From positions 2,587,501 through 2,651,500 of the forward strand of contig NZ_CP072648.1 of assembly GCF_018304825.1 (NCBI RefSeq): 64,000 nucleotides of DNA, written 5' to 3'. Position numbers and translations under genes: made by a program. Source of the stretch: Chloracidobacterium validum. GTDB taxonomy: Bacteria; Acidobacteriota; Blastocatellia; Chloracidobacteriales; Chloracidobacteriaceae. The notes beneath the pieces are model-generated. The model saw only the letters and a list, made by a program, of their open reading frames with translations. It had not been told where the DNA came from and made no database searches. Shown in pieces: positions 1,707 to 57,212 of the stretch; positions within the stretch are counted from its first letter, which is position 1; the number at the start of each line of letters is the position of its first letter.

Positions 1707-3311
1707 ATGCTGATTGAATCCAAAGTTCAGACCGACAGCGAAGATTTTCAGACCAACTACGCGGCGCTACTCGCGCAATGCGAACAACTGCGCGAGCGGC
1801 TCGAACTCGTCAAACAGGGCGGCGGCCCGGCCGCGCAGGAACGGTTCGTGTCCAAAGGCAAGCTGCTGCCCCGCGAACGCATCGAACAGTTGATTGATCC
1901 ACGCAGTGACTTTCTGGAGCTGTCCCCGCTAGCCGCTTGGGACATGTATGACAACGAAGCCCCATGTGCTTCGTTCATTGCCGGCATTGGCCGGGTTCAC
2001 GGTGTCGAGTGCCTGATTACGGCCAACGATGCGACGGTCAAGGGTGGGGCGTTTTATCCGATGACCGTCAAGAAAAGTCTGCGCGCCCAGCAGATTGCGC
2101 TTGAAAACCGCCTGCCCTGCATTTCGCTGGTGGAATCGGCCGGGGCCAATCTGTTTTATCAAGCGGAAATGTTTGTCGAAGGCGGACGTGGCTTCGGCAA
2201 CCAAGCGCGGTTGTCAGCGCGGGGGATTCCACAGATTGCGCTGGTGTTTGGGAGTAGTACGGCCGGCGGGGCCTACGTGCCGGGGATGTCCGACTTCGCC
2301 GTGATGGTGCGGCAACAAGCGAAGGTTTTTTTAGGTGGCCCACCACTGGTTAAAGCCGCAACCGGTGAAGACATTGACGACGAAACCCTCGGCGGGGCCG
2401 ATATGCATGGGCGGGTGTCGGGCGTCAGTGACTACACTGCCGAAGACGATGCAGATGCCATCCGCATCGGGCGTGAGATTGTGGCTAGCCTCAACTGGCG
2501 CAAGCCTCCCGTGCCGAACTATCGCGCACCAGAGCTGCCGGCTTACGACCCGGACGAGCTACTGGGTATCATTCCGGTCAACCCGCGTAAGACCTTCGAT
2601 ATGCGCGAAGTCATTGCCCGCATCGTTGACGGCTCGCGGTTTTTTGAGTTCAAGCGCGACTATGGGGCCACCCTGCTGACCGGACACGCCCACCTTGAAG
2701 GCTTCCCAGTCGGTATTATTGCCAACAACGGTGTCCTGTTTTCAGAATGTGCCCTCAAAGCGGCCCATTTCATCCAGCTTTGCAATCAAGCCCGCATCCC
2801 GATTATCTACCTGCACAACACGCCGGGCTTCATGATCGGCAAAAAGGTCGAGCATGAAGGCATTGTCAAGCACGGATCGAAGATGATCCAAGCCGTGTCG
2901 AATGCCAGTGTCCCGCAGTTTTCCGTCATCGTTGGTGGCTCATACGGTGCTGGCAACTACGCCATGTGCGGTCGGGCCTACGATCCGCGCCTGCTGTTTT
3001 CGTGGGTCAACAGCCGCATTGCCGTCATGGGTGGCGAACAGGCGGCCGGCGTCCTGGTCCAAGTCCGGCTGGCTGCCATGAAAGCCCGTGGACAGACGCC
3101 CAATCCCGAACAGATGGAAGCCCTGCGCCGGGAGGTGGTCGAGCAGTTTGACGCCCAGTCGTCGGCCTACTACGCCACAGCCCGTTTGTGGGATGATGGG
3201 ATCATCGATCCACGCGACACGCGACGAGTTTTAGGCTTGGGGCTTTCCATGGCCTACAACGCCGATTTCTCTAGCGAGCCGGCGTCGCGCTATGGGGTCT
3301 TCCGCATGTAG
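1707..3311 (+). CDS. Acyl-CoA carboxylase, carboxyltransferase (beta) subunit, MccB-like
   Basis: The 534-residue protein is a biotin-dependent carboxyltransferase that moves the carboxyl group from carboxybiotin to an acyl-CoA. It has the paired crotonase-fold halves; key segments are SAGANLFYQ, GSSTAGGAYVPGMSDF in the N-half and NTPGFMIGKKVE and GGSYGAGNYAM in the C-half. Length and motifs are closest to methylcrotonyl-CoA or geranyl-CoA carboxylase beta subunits rather than to AccD, so a role in leucine or branched acyl-CoA breakdown is likely. The biotinylated alpha subunit is not next to it. ATG 1707 is chosen because the match to the family begins there; the frame stays open upstream into the preceding gene. 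Propionyl-CoA carboxylase is the main alternative. Confidence 0.85.
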   Translation: MLIESKVQTDSEDFQTNYAALLAQCEQLRERLELVKQGGGPAAQERFVSKGKLLPRERIEQLIDPRSDFLELSPLAAWDMYDNEAPCASFIAGIGRVHGVECLITANDATVKGGAFYPMTVKKSLRAQQIALENRLPCISLVESAGANLFYQAEMFVEGGRGFGNQARLSARGIPQIALVFGSSTAGGAYVPGMSDFAVMVRQQAKVFLGGPPLVKAATGEDIDDETLGGADMHGRVSGVSDYTAEDDADAIRIGREIVASLNWRKPPVPNYRAPELPAYDPDELLGIIPVNPRKTFDMREVIARIVDGSRFFEFKRDYGATLLTGHAHLEGFPVGIIANNGVLFSECALKAAHFIQLCNQARIPIIYLHNTPGFMIGKKVEHEGIVKHGSKMIQAVSNASVPQFSVIVGGSYGAGNYAMCGRAYDPRLLFSWVNSRIAVMGGEQAAGVLVQVRLAAMKARGQTPNPEQMEALRREVVEQFDAQSSAYYATARLWDDGIIDPRDTRRVLGLGLSMAYNADFSSEPASRYGVFRM

Positions 3312-13410: not shown

Positions 13411-15681
13411 TCAAGCTGGCGAGGGACTGGCGCCGGACTCCGTTGGGCTTGGCACTTTCCAGAAGCCACTCGGACGTGGCTGGCCCGTGGCTTCGGTTTC
13501 AACCACGCAAACCCGATTCCGGCCACTCTGCTTGGCGCGATACAGGGCGCGGTCGGCAAGCTCTAGTAGCTGCTTGTAGTCACTCGTGTCAGACGGGAGT
13601 GAAGCCACACCCAAGCTGATCGTCAGACGGCCATCCGGCTGCGATTCACGTCCGGCAAACGGGTATTCCGCAACCCGTCGCCGGAGTCGCTCCGCAAGAA
13701 TGGCGGCCTGGCTCTTGGGTGTGTTGGGCAGGAGCACGACAAATTCTTCGCCGCCATACCGCGCCAGGAGGTCACTCCGCCGAAAACAACGTTCCATCAA
13801 CCGGGAGAGGTCTCTGAGCAGTTCATTGCCGGCCTCATGGCCGTTGGTATCGTTGAAGTGCTTGAACCGATCCACATCCAGCATGATGATGGAAAGCATC
13901 TGCCCATTGCGTTCGACAAGTTCGGACTTCCGGGCGAGTTTTTCCATGAAGTAGGCGTGGTTGAAAAGCCCCGTCAGGCCATCCGTGATGGCGCGATGCT
14001 TGGCGCTGTGATAAGCGCGCAGCATGGCTTCAAACTCGCGCTTTTGGTTGATGAGCGCCTTGACCCGCATGATGAGTTCTTTGCGGTTGACCGGCTTGGC
14101 CAGCACGTCCGTCGCGCCTACCTCTAGCCCGTGCAGCTTTTCCGTCGTTTCCAGGGACGCCGTCAACATCAGCACCGGTAGGTACCGGGTCGCTTCAACT
14201 TGCTTGATAAGGCGGCACAATTCATAGCCATCCACCATTGGAAGCGCGGCGTCAATGATGACGACATCTGGCAGTCGAGAGGCTGTTTCAAAATGATTGG
14301 CATGGAGCGTCGCGGCCGTTTCATTGCCTGCGACCACGATCAGTTGCGCCTTGAGGCTTTCACTTTCAAGAATGTTTCGCAACAGATTGCCGCTCTCCGC
14401 GCTGCCGTCCACAATAAGCACCTGTGGCGTGTCTGACAGTGGCAGCCCAATGCGATGTGGCAGGGAAAAGGTCAGCCGGCAGCCGCGCGCGGCGTCGCCA
14501 CTGACTGTCAGCATGGCGCCATGGAGTTGCAGGATGCGCTGCGTCACGCTCAATCCCAGGGCGATTCCCCGCTCAGGTAGCCCCGTCCCACCGCTTTGTA
14601 TCAAGCTGTGATAGGTTGCCAACCGCTGCTCGGCCACAATCCCAGACATGTTGTCCTGAAGGGTGACGACAAGGTTTTGCACGTTGCGGGAGATGCGTTG
14701 CAGCTCGCCGGTCAGGCTCAACACGCCACCCCGCGGAATGTAGCGCAGGGCATCATCGAGTAGCTGGGATAAGGCCTCGTAGAGACGGTTTTCATCGCCA
14801 ACGAGCATCTCGCACGCAGGGTCGAGAACAAAGGTCAGTTTCACCTGGCGGCGCTCCGCCACCGGAGCAAAAGCGGACTGTAGCGACTGGAACAGACGGG
14901 CAGCAGAAAACTCCCGAACTTCCAGGGCATCACCGCCGCGTTCGAGGCGCACCAACCGCATGAGATCATCCACGATATGGAGTAGGGCCTGTCCACCGGA
15001 CTCGATGTGCTGAATGAACTCACGCTGCGTTTCGGTCAGTGAACCATAAGCGGCATCCTGCACCATCTCACAGTAGCCCAGGACCGTGGTGAGTGGCGCT
15101 CGCAGTTCATAATCCACATTGGCAATGAATTTCTCACGGTCGCGGATGGCTTGCTCGCCAAGTTCGGTGAGGCGTTCCACCGCATGGCGGGTGGCTTCCA
15201 GTTGCCGGCTCACCTCAGCGACTTGCGCCTCAGCCTCGGTCAAGCGAGCGCACCACCCACTTTCGCGCAGCAGGAAGGCCCACGCCAACTCCTGACCATC
15301 AAAAGCTGCCTCCACATTTGAAGGCGGATCACGCTCGATCAAAACAGCGCCGCACAGCAAGTGGTCCAAGGCCAATCGCCGGATCACAATCCCCGGACTC
15401 GCATCTACCGCGAAGGGAAAGCTTGGCAAGTCCGCGCGCCGCTCAACGATGAGGCCCTGAGACTGAATGGCCACCTGTCGCTCGGTCAGTGCCAGTTCAA
15501 GGCTTTCGCGCGCGAAATCTTCATAGCCGACCGCAGCGAGCAAGCGAAACCGCTCATCGTCGAAAAAGGCAATGGCCAGTGGAACATTCCCTAGTTGGCG
15601 GGACAAATTACCGGCAGCTTGCTGCAACCGATAGATCAACTCTGGTGTGAGCGATTTAGAAACCCACATCCGTAGGGACAC
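13411..15681 (-). CDS. Degenerate histidine kinase-receiver-diguanylate cyclase fusion
   Basis: The 756-residue cytoplasmic protein has, in order, a GAF-like N-terminal region (about 15-140), a coiled linker, a HisKA-like helical pair (about 180-250), a HATPase-like region (290-410), a receiver (419-545) and a GGDEF domain (565-727). The phosphoacceptor His is replaced: residues 188-197 read NVDYELRAPL with Tyr191. The ATPase N-box reads QLLDDALRY and the G1 box DNMSGI, so nucleotide binding is doubtful. The receiver keeps Asp477 and Lys529, but the usual N-terminal acidic pair is reduced to VDG. The cyclase looks intact: GGEEF at 643-647 and an RxxD inhibitory site at 634-637. Likely output is c-di-GMP; the kinase part probably only senses or dimerises. 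Confidence 0.88.
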   Translation of the reverse strand: MSLRMWVSKSLTPELIYRLQQAAGNLSRQLGNVPLAIAFFDDERFRLLAAVGYEDFARESLELALTERQVAIQSQGLIVERRADLPSFPFAVDASPGIVIRRLALDHLLCGAVLIERDPPSNVEAAFDGQELAWAFLLRESGWCARLTEAEAQVAEVSRQLEATRHAVERLTELGEQAIRDREKFIANVDYELRAPLTTVLGYCEMVQDAAYGSLTETQREFIQHIESGGQALLHIVDDLMRLVRLERGGDALEVREFSAARLFQSLQSAFAPVAERRQVKLTFVLDPACEMLVGDENRLYEALSQLLDDALRYIPRGGVLSLTGELQRISRNVQNLVVTLQDNMSGIVAEQRLATYHSLIQSGGTGLPERGIALGLSVTQRILQLHGAMLTVSGDAARGCRLTFSLPHRIGLPLSDTPQVLIVDGSAESGNLLRNILESESLKAQLIVVAGNETAATLHANHFETASRLPDVVIIDAALPMVDGYELCRLIKQVEATRYLPVLMLTASLETTEKLHGLEVGATDVLAKPVNRKELIMRVKALINQKREFEAMLRAYHSAKHRAITDGLTGLFNHAYFMEKLARKSELVERNGQMLSIIMLDVDRFKHFNDTNGHEAGNELLRDLSRLMERCFRRSDLLARYGGEEFVVLLPNTPKSQAAILAERLRRRVAEYPFAGRESQPDGRLTISLGVASLPSDTSDYKQLLELADRALYRAKQSGRNRVCVVETEATGQPRPSGFWKVPSPTESGASPSPA

Positions 15682-15747: not shown

Positions 15748-16836
15748 TTATGCCGACGGGGACGACGTGGCCGCAAGCATACCGCAGGCAGCGAAAATAT
15801 CGCGCCCGCGTGGGCGGCGCACATAGGTCGGCAGGCCCTTGGCTCGGAGGCGGGACTGGAAGCCCAGAATGCGCTCCGGTGACGATGGGCGAAACGGAAT
15901 GCCCGGCGCTGGATTGTGGGGAATGAGGTTGACCTTGGCTGCCTCCCGCGCGCGCAGCGGCGCCAACCACTTGAGCAACGCCTGAGCGTGGTCGTCGCCA
16001 TCATTGATGCCGTCGAGCAAAACATACTCAAAGGTAATCCGTTCCCCCGCGCGGCGTGGAAAGTCCAGGCAAGCCTGGCGTAGCGCGTCCAGCGGATAGG
16101 TCAGGTTGACCGGCATCAGCCGCGCGCGCAGCTCGTCAGTCGGCGCGGTCAATGAAACCGCCAAGCCGGGACGGTCGGGTTCGCGGCCCAGGGCCGCAAT
16201 TTTCGGAACGATGCCGACCGTCGAAAGCGTTACCCGCCGCGGCACGATGTGGAGACCTTCTGGGTCGGCCAGGATACGCAGCGCGCGCATGACGTGCTCG
16301 TAGTTGAGCAATGGCTCGCCCATGCCCATCAGCACGAGATTGACGGTAGCCGGACGTGGACGGCCAAGGCGCCGGGAGGCATCGCGAAGAACATAGATGA
16401 CCTGTGCCACGATTTCATCCGCGGTCAGGTTGCGCTGGAGGCCGAGCGTTGCCGTGGCGCAAAAAGCGCACATCATCGGACAGCCGGCCTGCGAGGATAG
16501 GCACAGCGTGATGCGCTTCCCATCGGGAATCCAGACGGTTTCGATGGCCTGTCCGCCGCGGACGGTGAACAGGTAGCGCCGGGTGCCATCCGCAGCTTCA
16601 ACAACCTGGGTTGCGTGAAGGGGCGCTAGATTGAACGCTGCTGCCAGTTGCCTCCGCGCGGCTCGCGGTAATTCATAAACCTCGTCGAGCGTTTCAACCA
16701 GCCGGTGGTGGAGCGCCTGAAAAAGCTGCCGTCCACGGTAGGACGGCAGCCCCTGCTCGGCAACGTATGCGCTCAGTTGTTGGCGGGTCAGACCTAATAA
16801 GCCCACCCCTGCCGATTCGTTCATTCCCGCCGGCAT
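15748..16836 (-). CDS. rlmN: 23S rRNA (A2503-C2)/tRNA (A37-C2) methyltransferase
   Basis: The 362-residue radical-SAM enzyme methylates C2 of A2503 in 23S rRNA and A37 in some tRNAs. The [4Fe-4S] motif CPMMCAFC uses Cys119, Cys123 and Cys126. A C-terminal AACGMLA supplies Cys351, the methyl-carrying cysteine. GMGEPLLNYE and the preceding LVLMGM are conserved. The start could be ATG 16836 or ATG 16824. It lies upstream of the hybrid kinase gene with a gap of about 65 bases; cotranscription is possible. Confidence 0.94.
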   Translation of the reverse strand: MPAGMNESAGVGLLGLTRQQLSAYVAEQGLPSYRGRQLFQALHHRLVETLDEVYELPRAARRQLAAAFNLAPLHATQVVEAADGTRRYLFTVRGGQAIETVWIPDGKRITLCLSSQAGCPMMCAFCATATLGLQRNLTADEIVAQVIYVLRDASRRLGRPRPATVNLVLMGMGEPLLNYEHVMRALRILADPEGLHIVPRRVTLSTVGIVPKIAALGREPDRPGLAVSLTAPTDELRARLMPVNLTYPLDALRQACLDFPRRAGERITFEYVLLDGINDGDDHAQALLKWLAPLRAREAAKVNLIPHNPAPGIPFRPSSPERILGFQSRLRAKGLPTYVRRPRGRDIFAACGMLAATSSPSA

Positions 16837-17168: not shown

Positions 17169-17348
17169 ATGGCCACGCGAGCTTTCTGCGATTGTTGCGA
17201 TGAACCAGCTCGGCAGCTCTTTGACATCACACGCATTCCAGAATTAGCCGAAGTGGTTCGACAGTTTGGCTACCGGGCGGTGTGTCAAGCTTGCTATGAC
17301 AACCTTTTTGAAGAACTCGAACGTGAAGCAGAAGATGTTGACGCCTAA
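17169..17348 (+). CDS. Small zinc-ribbon-like protein, 59 residues
   Basis: The reading frame encodes 59 residues beginning MATRAFCDCCDEPARQLF. Two cysteine pairs, C7-x-C9-C10 and C39-x2-C42 (VCQAC), are spaced like a zinc ribbon, and the tail is strongly acidic. AGGATG lies about 8 bases before ATG 17169, a fair ribosome site. No ordinary family is recognised. Small single-ribbon proteins of this kind often bind RNA or act in protein complexes. The oxidoreductase gene follows after 81 bases, so it may lead that transcript. It could be a chance frame, but the ribosome site, paired cysteines and codon use argue for a real gene. Confidence 0.6.
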   Translation: MATRAFCDCCDEPARQLFDITRIPELAEVVRQFGYRAVCQACYDNLFEELEREAEDVDA

Positions 17349-17429
17349 CCGGTTGTTGCACCGGCAATCTCCAGTCTGCTCCAGGCCTACGGCTTGGCGG
17401 CAGCCACCTGAAAAGATGTTGGCAAACCT

Positions 17430-18587
17430 ATGAATCAACAAGCTGAAGTCGTCATCATTGGCGGCGGCGTCATCGGATGCAGCATTGCCTACTTTCTGAC
17501 GCGGCAGGGTTGCCACGACGTGCTCATCCTGGAGCGCGAGAACTTCCAGGGCAAGCACTCGACGGGGCGCAGCGCGGGAGGCGTCCGCCAGCAGTTCGCC
17601 ACGCCGGTCAATATCCGCATGTCGCGGTTTTCGATAGATTTCTTTACCCAATTCGAAGAACTGACGGGGCAGGACCCTGAATACCGGCGCTATGGGTATC
17701 TCTTTCTTGCCACCGAGCCGGCGCAGGTGGACTACCTGCGCCACAACATGAGCGTCCAGCAGGCAGAAGGCGTGCCCGTGGAATTCCTGAGCCGCGACGA
17801 CATTGCCAAGCTCGTCCCGCAACTCTACGTCGAGGATGTCCTGGGCGGAACGTACTGCCCAACGGATGGCTTCGTGGACCCATACAGCATCATGCAGGGC
17901 TTCAATCGAAAGGCGCGGGAACAGGGCGCGCGCATCGAGCTGGAAACCGAAGTGTTGGACATCGTGGTAGAGCACGGGCGCGTGACCGGCGTGGTCACGA
18001 ACCGGGGCAACATTGCGACGCGCGCCGTGGTCAATGCGGCCGGGGCCTGGGCGCATCTGGTTGGGCGGAAAGTTGGGGTGGAGATTCCTATTCGTCCAAC
18101 CAAGCGCCAGATCGTGACGACCGAACGTTTTGATGAACTGCCACGCGAACTGCCGATGCTGGTTGACTTGAGCACGGGCTGCTACATGCGCAAGGAAGGG
18201 GATGGCGTCATGCTTGGCTGGGCTGACCCCAGCGAACCGGAAAGCTTCGACACGACGTTCAACCCAGATTTCATTGATGCCATCATTGAGCGCGCGCTGC
18301 CCCGCGTCCCTTGTCTGGAAAACGCCGCAATCAATCTCCGCCGTTGCTGGGGTGGCCTCTACGACATTTCGCCGGATCACCACGCCATTGTCGGACCGAC
18401 GCCGAACATCGAAGGTTTTTATATCTGCACGGGCTTCAGCGGTCACGGCATCATGCACTCGCCGGCAATGGGCGTGGCCATGGCAGAACTGATTCTGCTC
18501 GGCGAGTCGCGTACGCTCGACGTGACGCCGCTTTCGCTGGAACGCTTTGCCAAAGGCGAGCTGCTGCACGAAACGGCGGTCATTTGA
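17430..18587 (+). CDS. FAD-dependent oxidoreductase, DAO family (sarcosine/glycine-oxidase-like)
   Basis: The 385-residue flavoprotein starts with a Rossmann motif VVIIGGGVIGCSIAYFL and ends with FYICTGFSGHGIMHSPAMG, the classical D-amino-acid-oxidase C-terminal flavin segment. The middle segment GGVRQQFATPVNIRMS is typical of sarcosine oxidase beta and related dehydrogenases. It should oxidise the C-N bond of an amino acid or N-methyl amino acid; the exact substrate is not visible. It runs in the same direction as the SDR gene, 6 bases downstream. Confidence 0.85.
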   Translation: MNQQAEVVIIGGGVIGCSIAYFLTRQGCHDVLILERENFQGKHSTGRSAGGVRQQFATPVNIRMSRFSIDFFTQFEELTGQDPEYRRYGYLFLATEPAQVDYLRHNMSVQQAEGVPVEFLSRDDIAKLVPQLYVEDVLGGTYCPTDGFVDPYSIMQGFNRKAREQGARIELETEVLDIVVEHGRVTGVVTNRGNIATRAVVNAAGAWAHLVGRKVGVEIPIRPTKRQIVTTERFDELPRELPMLVDLSTGCYMRKEGDGVMLGWADPSEPESFDTTFNPDFIDAIIERALPRVPCLENAAINLRRCWGGLYDISPDHHAIVGPTPNIEGFYICTGFSGHGIMHSPAMGVAMAELILLGESRTLDVTPLSLERFAKGELLHETAVI

Positions 18588-18593
18588 AGTTTC

Positions 18594-19334
18594 ATGTCCG
18601 CAACCTACGCGATTTTCGGGGCGACATCCGGCATTGCCCGCGCGGTCATGACCGAACTGGCCAAAGACGGAGCCAAACTCATTCTGGCCGGACGCAACCT
18701 TTCCGAAGTCGAGCGCATCGCCAGTGATGTCCGGTTGCGGCATCGCGTCACGACCCACAGCGTCGCCTTCGACGCCTGTGACTTCACAAGTCACGCCTCG
18801 GTCTTCGCTGCCGTCGTGGAACAGGCCGGTGACCTGGACGGCATTCTTGTGGCCTTCGGAACACTGACCGACCAAAAGCAGGCCGAACAAGACCCATCGG
18901 CGGCTGAAGCCATGATTGTTTCCAACTACACCGGCGTCGTGTCGCTCGTGACGCACGCTGCCAACTACTTTGAAGCGCGACGCAAGGGCGTGATCTGCGT
19001 CATTGCTTCGGTGGCGGGCGACCGCGGACGCCAAAGCAACTACGTTTATGGCTCGGCCAAAGCCGGTGTCGCCGCCTTTTGCCAGGGACTGCGCCAACGT
19101 CTCTCCAAGAAAGGCGTCCGCGTGGTCACGATCAAACCGGGGATGGTGGAGACCCCGATGACCTACGGACTCAAGTTGCCGCCCATTGTGGTCAAACCGG
19201 AGCGGGTGGCGCGTGACATCGCGCGCGCCATCCAACGCGCCGACGGCGACATCTACACGCCGTTTTTCTGGCGCTTCATCATGCTCATCATTCGGATGAT
19301 TCCCGAACCGGTGTTCAAACGGCTCTCGCTATGA
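18594..19334 (+). CDS. Short-chain dehydrogenase/reductase
   Basis: The 246-residue classical SDR has the cofactor motif YAIFGATSGIARAV (residues 4-17), catalytic Ser in VIASVAGDRG and YGSAK (Y-x3-K). The C-terminal part FFWRFIMLIIRMIPEPVFKRLSL is hydrophobic and may touch the membrane. It resembles the SDR class that includes the keto-reductase DprE2 of arabinan synthesis, but no DprE1 partner is seen here, so the substrate is open. It overlaps the VanZ gene by four bases (ATGA), a sign of translational coupling. Confidence 0.85.
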   Translation: MSATYAIFGATSGIARAVMTELAKDGAKLILAGRNLSEVERIASDVRLRHRVTTHSVAFDACDFTSHASVFAAVVEQAGDLDGILVAFGTLTDQKQAEQDPSAAEAMIVSNYTGVVSLVTHAANYFEARRKGVICVIASVAGDRGRQSNYVYGSAKAGVAAFCQGLRQRLSKKGVRVVTIKPGMVETPMTYGLKLPPIVVKPERVARDIARAIQRADGDIYTPFFWRFIMLIIRMIPEPVFKRLSL

Positions 19335-32990: not shown

Positions 32991-33359
32991 TGGTGGAGAT
33001 GGAGGGAGTTGAACCCTCGTCCGCGAACCTTCGGCGTTGGAGACTACGTGCGTAGTCGCTTCCGTTGCATCTCGTACTTGCGCCGCCGGAGCAGCGACCT
33101 TGAGCAGCGCAACTACCAGCCGAGTTTTATCTCGCGGCCACGCCCTCGGCGCAGCGTTGCCGCCAGCTCGTGAACGTCACGCCTGCGTCATCCGGCACGA
33201 GCCACCGGATGGGCAGACGGCTCAGCAGTTTTTAGGCTGCGAGAGCAAATTCCTGCGTTTCGGCAGGTAATGGTTTCCACACGTTTTGACGAGCGGCATG
33301 GTCGCCCGGCACGCCTCACAAACACCTCACACTGTCCACGTCGAAACCGTGACATCCCC
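32991..33359 (-). ncRNA. ssrA: tmRNA
   Basis: The 369-base RNA on the minus strand has a tRNA-like acceptor: GGGGATG at its 5' end (33359) pairs with CATCTCC near the 3' end, followed by A and CCA (32991-32993). The T-arm region reads GAGGGTTCAACTCCCTC. The tag frame, near 33225-33270, reads GCC GAA ACG CAG GAA TTT GCT CTC GCA GCC TAA, giving [10 protein letters not shown]; the final ALAA is the usual degron that sends stalled proteins to ClpXP. A terminator follows the 3' end. Confidence 0.95.
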
Positions 33360-56804: not shown

Positions 56805-57212
56805 ATGCAAGCACCCGTTATGTCCGAGACCCCAAAACATATTCTCGTTGTGGACGACAACGAATCCATCCGTGAGTTACTCACGGAATTGCTTAGTCAT
56901 GCTGGTTACGTCGTCACGTCCGTGGATGATGGCATCGGGGCAATGACCGTACTCAAAAAGCAAGTGCCAGACCTCATCATCCTGGACGTCATGATGCCAG
57001 TGATTGACGGTCCACATTTGATTGAAGTCATTCGTGCCGCTGATAACCCGGAAATGTGGCAAGTCCCGATCCTGATTTGTTCGGCTTCAGAAAAGATTGA
57101 TGAAATTCTGGCTTCGTCGGAATTCAACATTGCACCCGAAGACTGTCTGCGCAAACCTTTTGAAGTGACCGACCTGCTGCATCGCGTCGCGGATCGGCTG
57201 ATGCGCACTTAG
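56805..57212 (+). CDS. Single-domain response regulator
   Basis: The 135-residue protein is one receiver domain: HILVVDDNESIRELL at the start (acidic pair), LIILDVMMPVIDG with the phospho-accepting Asp, and RKPFEVTD with the Lys. No output domain follows. Such CheY-type proteins often act in relays or bind a target. The start may be ATG 56805 or ATG 56820. It lies 24 bases after the acyltransferase gene, so it may be cotranscribed. Confidence 0.9.
   Translation: MQAPVMSETPKHILVVDDNESIRELLTELLSHAGYVVTSVDDGIGAMTVLKKQVPDLIILDVMMPVIDGPHLIEVIRAADNPEMWQVPILICSASEKIDEILASSEFNIAPEDCLRKPFEVTDLLHRVADRLMRT

Follow-up and report, generated by a model that had tools for sequence, protein, structure and literature searches.

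In the window, as the whole 64,000-nucleotide stretch of Chloracidobacterium validum DNA analysed here is called, a GTG-initiated gene on the minus strand (13411..15681, 756 aa) encodes a protein in which an N-terminal domain, a histidine kinase module, a receiver and a GGDEF domain follow one another in that order. The kinase carries an invariant tyrosine (Tyr191) together with a degraded ATP site, the receiver lacks both the acidic residue at DD2 and the aromatic residue at K-3, and the cyclase motifs and I-site are intact. The reading favoured here, with a probability of roughly 0.6 and on the strength of the sequence, is that of a phosphorylation-independent cytoplasmic diguanylate cyclase whose dead two-component modules would serve as dimer and transmission modules, and perhaps as docking modules. 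Because key catalytic residues have been lost and the tyrosine is conserved in all eight species compared, the dead modules probably form a switchable scaffold, much as in the Caulobacter pseudokinase DivL.

All of the Pfam domain calls (HisKA, HATPase_c, Response_reg and GGDEF) lie above gathering scores. The DHp domain (residues 182-249; 14935..15138, minus strand, as for every feature of the gene given below) matches PF00512 with an E of 3.3e-14 and contains the H-box FIANVDYELRAPLTTVLGYCE, and codon TAT (15109..15111) stands at the phosphoacceptor position, in agreement with the original prediction that Tyr191 replaces the histidine. Full-length orthologues were found in six congeners (76-80% identity) and in one genome from a sister genus of the same family (55%), so that counts out of eight refer to the window protein, six congeners and one sister-genus protein. 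It had been suggested that the orthologues be checked for tyrosine at this site and, when this was done, Tyr191 proved to be invariant in the alignment of all eight from two genera, the equivalent codons differing among them. The protein is therefore a pseudo-histidine kinase, i.e. it has a recognisable HisKA domain from which the histidine is absent, as is the case for approximately 0.9% of HisKA domains (PMC12632262). The host genome, which totals 3,659,143 bases and consists of a 2.66-Mb and a 1.00-Mb contig, encodes 38 HisKA domains and the other 37 all have histidine. Since tyrosine is found in 8/8 orthologues, with varied codons, and histidine in 37/37 of the other domains, sequencing error and drift in a single strain can both be rejected. 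The idea that the tyrosine is commonplace in the phylum was also rejected as far as this motif is concerned: a DNA pattern for YELR[AST]PLT, which is strict enough that other pseudo-kinases in the phylum would escape it, occurred in three of 396 sampled phylum genomes, all of them from this genus and each time at this locus. A survey of 14 genomes at the level of the order revealed a full-length relative in these eight only, whilst only more distant relatives were returned when 84,980 species genomes were scanned, near records possibly having been omitted. Directly upstream of the gene, across a 66-nt gap, lies a gene whose product we take, from its sequence, to be rlmN-like (15748..16836, minus strand), and a position flanked by the rlmN-like gene on one side and by NUDIX and prfA genes on the other is kept in all seven genus genomes, the rlmN-like neighbour also adjoining the orthologue in the sister genus. 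A short second stretch resembling residues 721-743 (69.6% identity over 23 aa) occurs at about 3217-3285 of locus L107, just after the orthologue of genome G008 on a 3.5-kb contig, and could have arisen by partial duplication or as an artefact of assembly.

The ATP-binding HATPase_c domain (residues 295-410; 14452..14799) had been described as having degraded boxes, and QLLDD and DNMSG do read exactly as claimed. The N-box is QLLDDALRY (306-314), its asparagine being replaced by Asp310 throughout the genus, the G1 box is DNMSG (343-347) and the G2 box is GIALG in the genus. As judged from these boxes, degradation of the ATP site has gone further within the genus than in the sister genus, where the orthologue has the tyrosine but has kept the N-box asparagine (LLDNAFKFTPAGG) and scores 68.5 bits against PF02518 compared to 43.9 bits for the window protein. 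The species series, in which the tyrosine is fixed already in the sister genus whilst the ATP site there is better kept, suggests an order of losses, and its simplest reading would be that the histidine was lost first and that decay of the ATP site came later, within the genus. The protein is accordingly predicted to lack kinase activity. HisKA kinases usually have Thr, Ser or Asn at H+4, where Thr or Asn serves phosphatase activity; the residue is Ala in 8/8 orthologues, and so phosphatase activity is doubtful too.

The receiver (residues 421-540; 14062..14421) matches PF00072 and, with landmarks taken from PMC12632262, can be read as follows: DD1 is D425 (Glu in the sister genus), DD2 is G426, the phospho-Asp is D477 (14251..14253), and these are followed by T507, V526 at K-3 and K529. 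The receiver is thus, as had been stated, short of one acidic residue with its Asp and Lys retained. DD2 is non-acidic in all eight orthologues (Gly, Ala, Thr or Ser) and K-3 is Val in all eight instead of the aromatic Tyr or Phe. Thr and Lys are kept throughout and position 477 is Asp in seven; in the eighth, orthologue L102 of genome G006, the sequence is LINAALGPVDG, in which Asn occupies the phosphoacceptor position and Gly replaces the D+4 Pro that is usual. Within one genus, then, the receiver varies from Asp-bearing to Asp-less. A pseudo-receiver has been defined as a PF00072 match in which one or more of the five key residues DD, D, T and K are missing (PMC12632262), and with DD2 non-acidic in 8/8 and the D477N substitution in L102 the domain falls under this definition and not under that of a true receiver.

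An important consideration is whether the receiver nevertheless works, D477 being phosphorylated in trans by a separate histidine kinase that switches the cyclase on, in the manner of PleD or WspR, with the protein's own kinase as a mere hinge. Phosphoryl groups could be supplied by the 37 HisKA domains found elsewhere in the genome, the receiver-cyclase half is matched best in the PDB by PleD and by proteins of the WspR type, and D+8 Gly is conserved along with D477 (7/8), T507 and K529, the retention of these last three being such that phosphorylation of the receiver could still take place. However, DD2 is a direct metal ligand in receivers, and its loss in every orthologue, the Val at K-3 and the two substitutions in genome G006 all speak against a working receiver. 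Control by an outside kinase acting through the receiver was part of the original prediction; it is not well supported, being weakened by the fit of the receiver to the published definition of a pseudo-receiver, and we consider it unlikely.

The GGDEF domain (residues 564-723; 13513..13992; PF00990, E 5.7e-48) is the most conserved part of the protein, with 90% mean identity in the genus and 78% to the sister genus. It has the motif of an active cyclase, GG(D/E)EF with catalytic Asp and Asn, in the form of GGEEF at residues 643-647 (13741..13755), D602 and N610, and just before GGEEF is the primary inhibitory site (I-site) RxxD (R634-D637; 13771..13782), which is a feature of feedback and is not required of a cyclase. 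All of these residues are invariant in 8/8 orthologues, so the earlier description of the GGEEF and RxxD sites as intact is correct, and by its motifs the protein appears able to make c-di-GMP. The combination of a kinase predicted to be dead with a cyclase predicted to be live is upheld at the level of sequence. There are seven GGDEF matches in the host genome, of which this domain has the top score, and the c-di-GMP set further comprises four HD-GYP-type matches and one weak PilZ match; a search of the genome for EAL gave no match. Members of Chloracidobacterium are phototrophic and non-motile, with aggregated growth in several of them (PMC8245765), and there is a readout of c-di-GMP in the genus, since the pilus ATPase PilB binds it in vitro (PMC11656802).

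The nature of the N-terminal domain (residues 1-150; 15232..15681), which is the fastest evolving part of the protein, is less clear. It had been called a GAF-like sensor, but an assignment to GAF by sequence had to be rejected: residues 1-150 had no Pfam or PDB sequence match, GAF in Pfam was not matched by any orthologue (and in the window protein not at E<=10), and hhalign against GAF domains of the taxonomic family gave a non-significant E of 0.28. The part of the claim that stands is a weak lead at the level of the fold. A single-sequence model of residues 1-149 has a low-confidence pLDDT of 44, and its best Foldseek matches are mostly to GAF domains, with a best E of 0.014, none at E<=0.001 and TM < 0.42. 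A GAF-like sensor is plausible on this model, if weakly so. The succeeding residues 151-181 (15139..15231) are a linker that is probably a coiled-coil signalling helix.

A route by which such a protein might work can be proposed. A signal at the N-terminal domain, probably a ligand of a GAF-like sensor, would pass through the helical linker to a dimeric DHp helix bundle with tyrosine for histidine. The attached ATPase domain and receiver would carry out no normal catalysis and would contribute structural transmission and docking, and a conformational change in the dimer would determine the way in which the pair of C-terminal GGDEF domains comes together, in or out of register. Binding of product at RxxD would then lead to feedback inhibition. 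The single-sequence model of the full-length protein (pLDDT 34) is unusable and the dimer mechanism rests on sequence and not on the model. A role for the dead kinase as a dimer hinge, as was originally envisaged, fits the fold and the precedent of DivL: the latter has no autokinase or phosphatase activity and is still a dimer and partner-binding module, autonomous autokinase activity is not restored by the Y550H substitution, and the DHp is the part by which DivL recognises DivK~P (PMC4211667).

DivL, a Tyr-bearing pseudo-histidine kinase of Caulobacter and the Rhizobiales, is in several respects among the closest known parallels. Both proteins have tyrosine at the phosphoacceptor position in a retained DHp-CA fold, both are without kinase or phosphatase activity (by prediction, in the case of the window protein), the H-boxes are nearly identical (FVGNVSYELRTPLTTIIGYSE in DivL, as against the sequence given above), and among solved relatives the kinase half has its second-best match in DivL (PDB 4q20), with Tyr-bearing DivL-like proteins among the best matches in alphaproteobacterial genomes. 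There are also clear differences. DivL has PAS sensors, has kept all the other kinase boxes and ends, as described, in its kinase module (PMC4211667), whereas the window protein has degraded ATP boxes, Ala at H+4 where DivL has Thr or Ser, and a cyclase output in cis; it shares the replacement of histidine by tyrosine in HisKA that marks the DivL family, but not the retention of the N, G1, F and G2 boxes. In a maximum-likelihood tree of 52 kinase cores, calculated with the Tyr column removed, the window orthologues formed one clade (100/99) and the DivL-like proteins another (98/94) and the two were not joined, so that two origins of the tyrosine are needed. Separate origins, i.e. convergence, are thus the better-scoring alternative to common descent with DivL, although a joint Tyr clade was not rejected by the AU test (p 0.241, or 0.253 without long branches).

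These observations bear on a second alternative, in which the Tyr-bearing DHp surface docks a phosphorylated partner response regulator in trans, as DivL does, altering the cyclase in cis and so converting two-component state into c-di-GMP. The near-match of the H-boxes, the rank of DivL orthologues among the alphaproteobacterial matches, the binding of DivK~P by the same DHp surface in DivL (PMC4211667) and the strong conservation of the DHp here are all in keeping with it, and this mode is compatible with the favoured explanation, to which it could be the input. It is opposed by the separation of the two Tyr groups in the best tree, albeit with the AU result just given, by the Ala at H+4 and by the absence of a partner encoded beside the gene, where the neighbours are rlmN-like, NUDIX and prfA. 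Docking of this kind is a possibility to which we attach only a small weight. To see in the protein a DivL-type sensor of phosphorylated response regulators, fused in cis to a cyclase and evolved outside the Alphaproteobacteria with both of its two-component modules dead, would be similarly tentative. A single-domain response regulator with canonical residues is encoded in the window (56805-57212, plus strand) and is among several candidates for a partner that the genome offers.

It could also be asked whether the kinase and receiver have any present role at all, or are the decaying leftovers of a hybrid kinase attached to a constitutive cyclase that alone matters. Mean identity in the genus is 63% for the N-terminal domain, 79% for the linker, 87% for the DHp, 75% for the ATPase domain, 79% for the receiver and 90% for GGDEF, so the ATPase and N-terminal domains evolve faster than the cyclase, and the lesser degradation of the ATP site in the sister genus would also be expected of decay. 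However, all domains are full length and free of frameshifts in eight orthologues across two genera, the mean nonsynonymous difference is well below the synonymous in every domain, and the tyrosine is invariant within a DHp that is 87% identical. In two live histidine kinases of the genus the DHp/ATPase identities are 94/83 and 88/89. The ATPase domain of the window protein is looser than in either, but the DHp is about as constrained as theirs and hence the dead bundle is not drifting. Decay is therefore a doubtful explanation, and distinctly less attractive than either form of control in trans. The comparison also weakens the argument that the DHp must have a docking role because it is so strongly conserved, given that the live kinases have equal or higher values, and the gap between DHp and ATPase conservation is not diagnostic because one live kinase shows it too (94 versus 83). 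Residual catalysis, in which Tyr191 or another residue would be phosphorylated by the protein's own or a partner ATPase domain (a tyrosine-kinase idea once raised for DivL), can draw on G1 Asp343 and the remaining parts of the G2 box, but is very improbable in view of the loss of the N-box Asn in the genus, the reduced ATPase-domain score and the lack of autokinase activity even in DivL with its better-kept boxes (PMC4211667).

Both the parts and the principle are already known from DivL, PleD and SgmT; it is the combination that is new. SgmT of Myxococcus xanthus (GAF-HK-REC-GGDEF) has the same domain order and a C-terminal cyclase-type domain with an I-site, but is a mirror image, its kinase being live and its GGDEF domain, which is unfit for synthesis, acting as a c-di-GMP receptor (PMC3509222), whereas for the window protein a dead kinase and an intact cyclase are predicted. 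Of the solved proteins related to the receiver-cyclase half, PleD (REC-pseudoREC-GGDEF) scores best; it shares the degenerate receiver before GGEEF and the RxxD site, and it shows that a pseudo-receiver placed next to a cyclase can have a structural role (PMC12632262). PleD differs in its true first receiver, which is phosphorylated by kinases and in place of which the window protein has a pseudo-kinase and a putative sensor. The joining of a receiver to an intact cyclase with an I-site is also seen in REC-GGDEF proteins of the WspR type but, unlike the window protein, these have no kinase module and a phosphorylatable receiver. There are also HK-REC-GGDEF hybrids with an intact histidine, an example being that at Oscillatoriales locus L021, which has the same order of kinase, receiver and GGDEF with histidine in its H-box FLAIASHELRSPLS. 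When the literature was searched for a diguanylate cyclase fused to a pseudo-histidine kinase, the pseudo-receiver review was the only paper to contain both terms. To our knowledge few pseudo-kinases themselves have an enzymatic output that can be measured; here the dead kinase and the output enzyme form a single chain and consequently what the dead kinase fold transmits can be tested by assay of c-di-GMP.

Two other features of the window may be mentioned. A 663-aa open frame on the minus strand (17244-19235) is antisense to two plausible plus-strand genes and is most likely a shadow frame, and a tmRNA gene with a 10-letter tag peptide lies at 32991-33359 on the minus strand.
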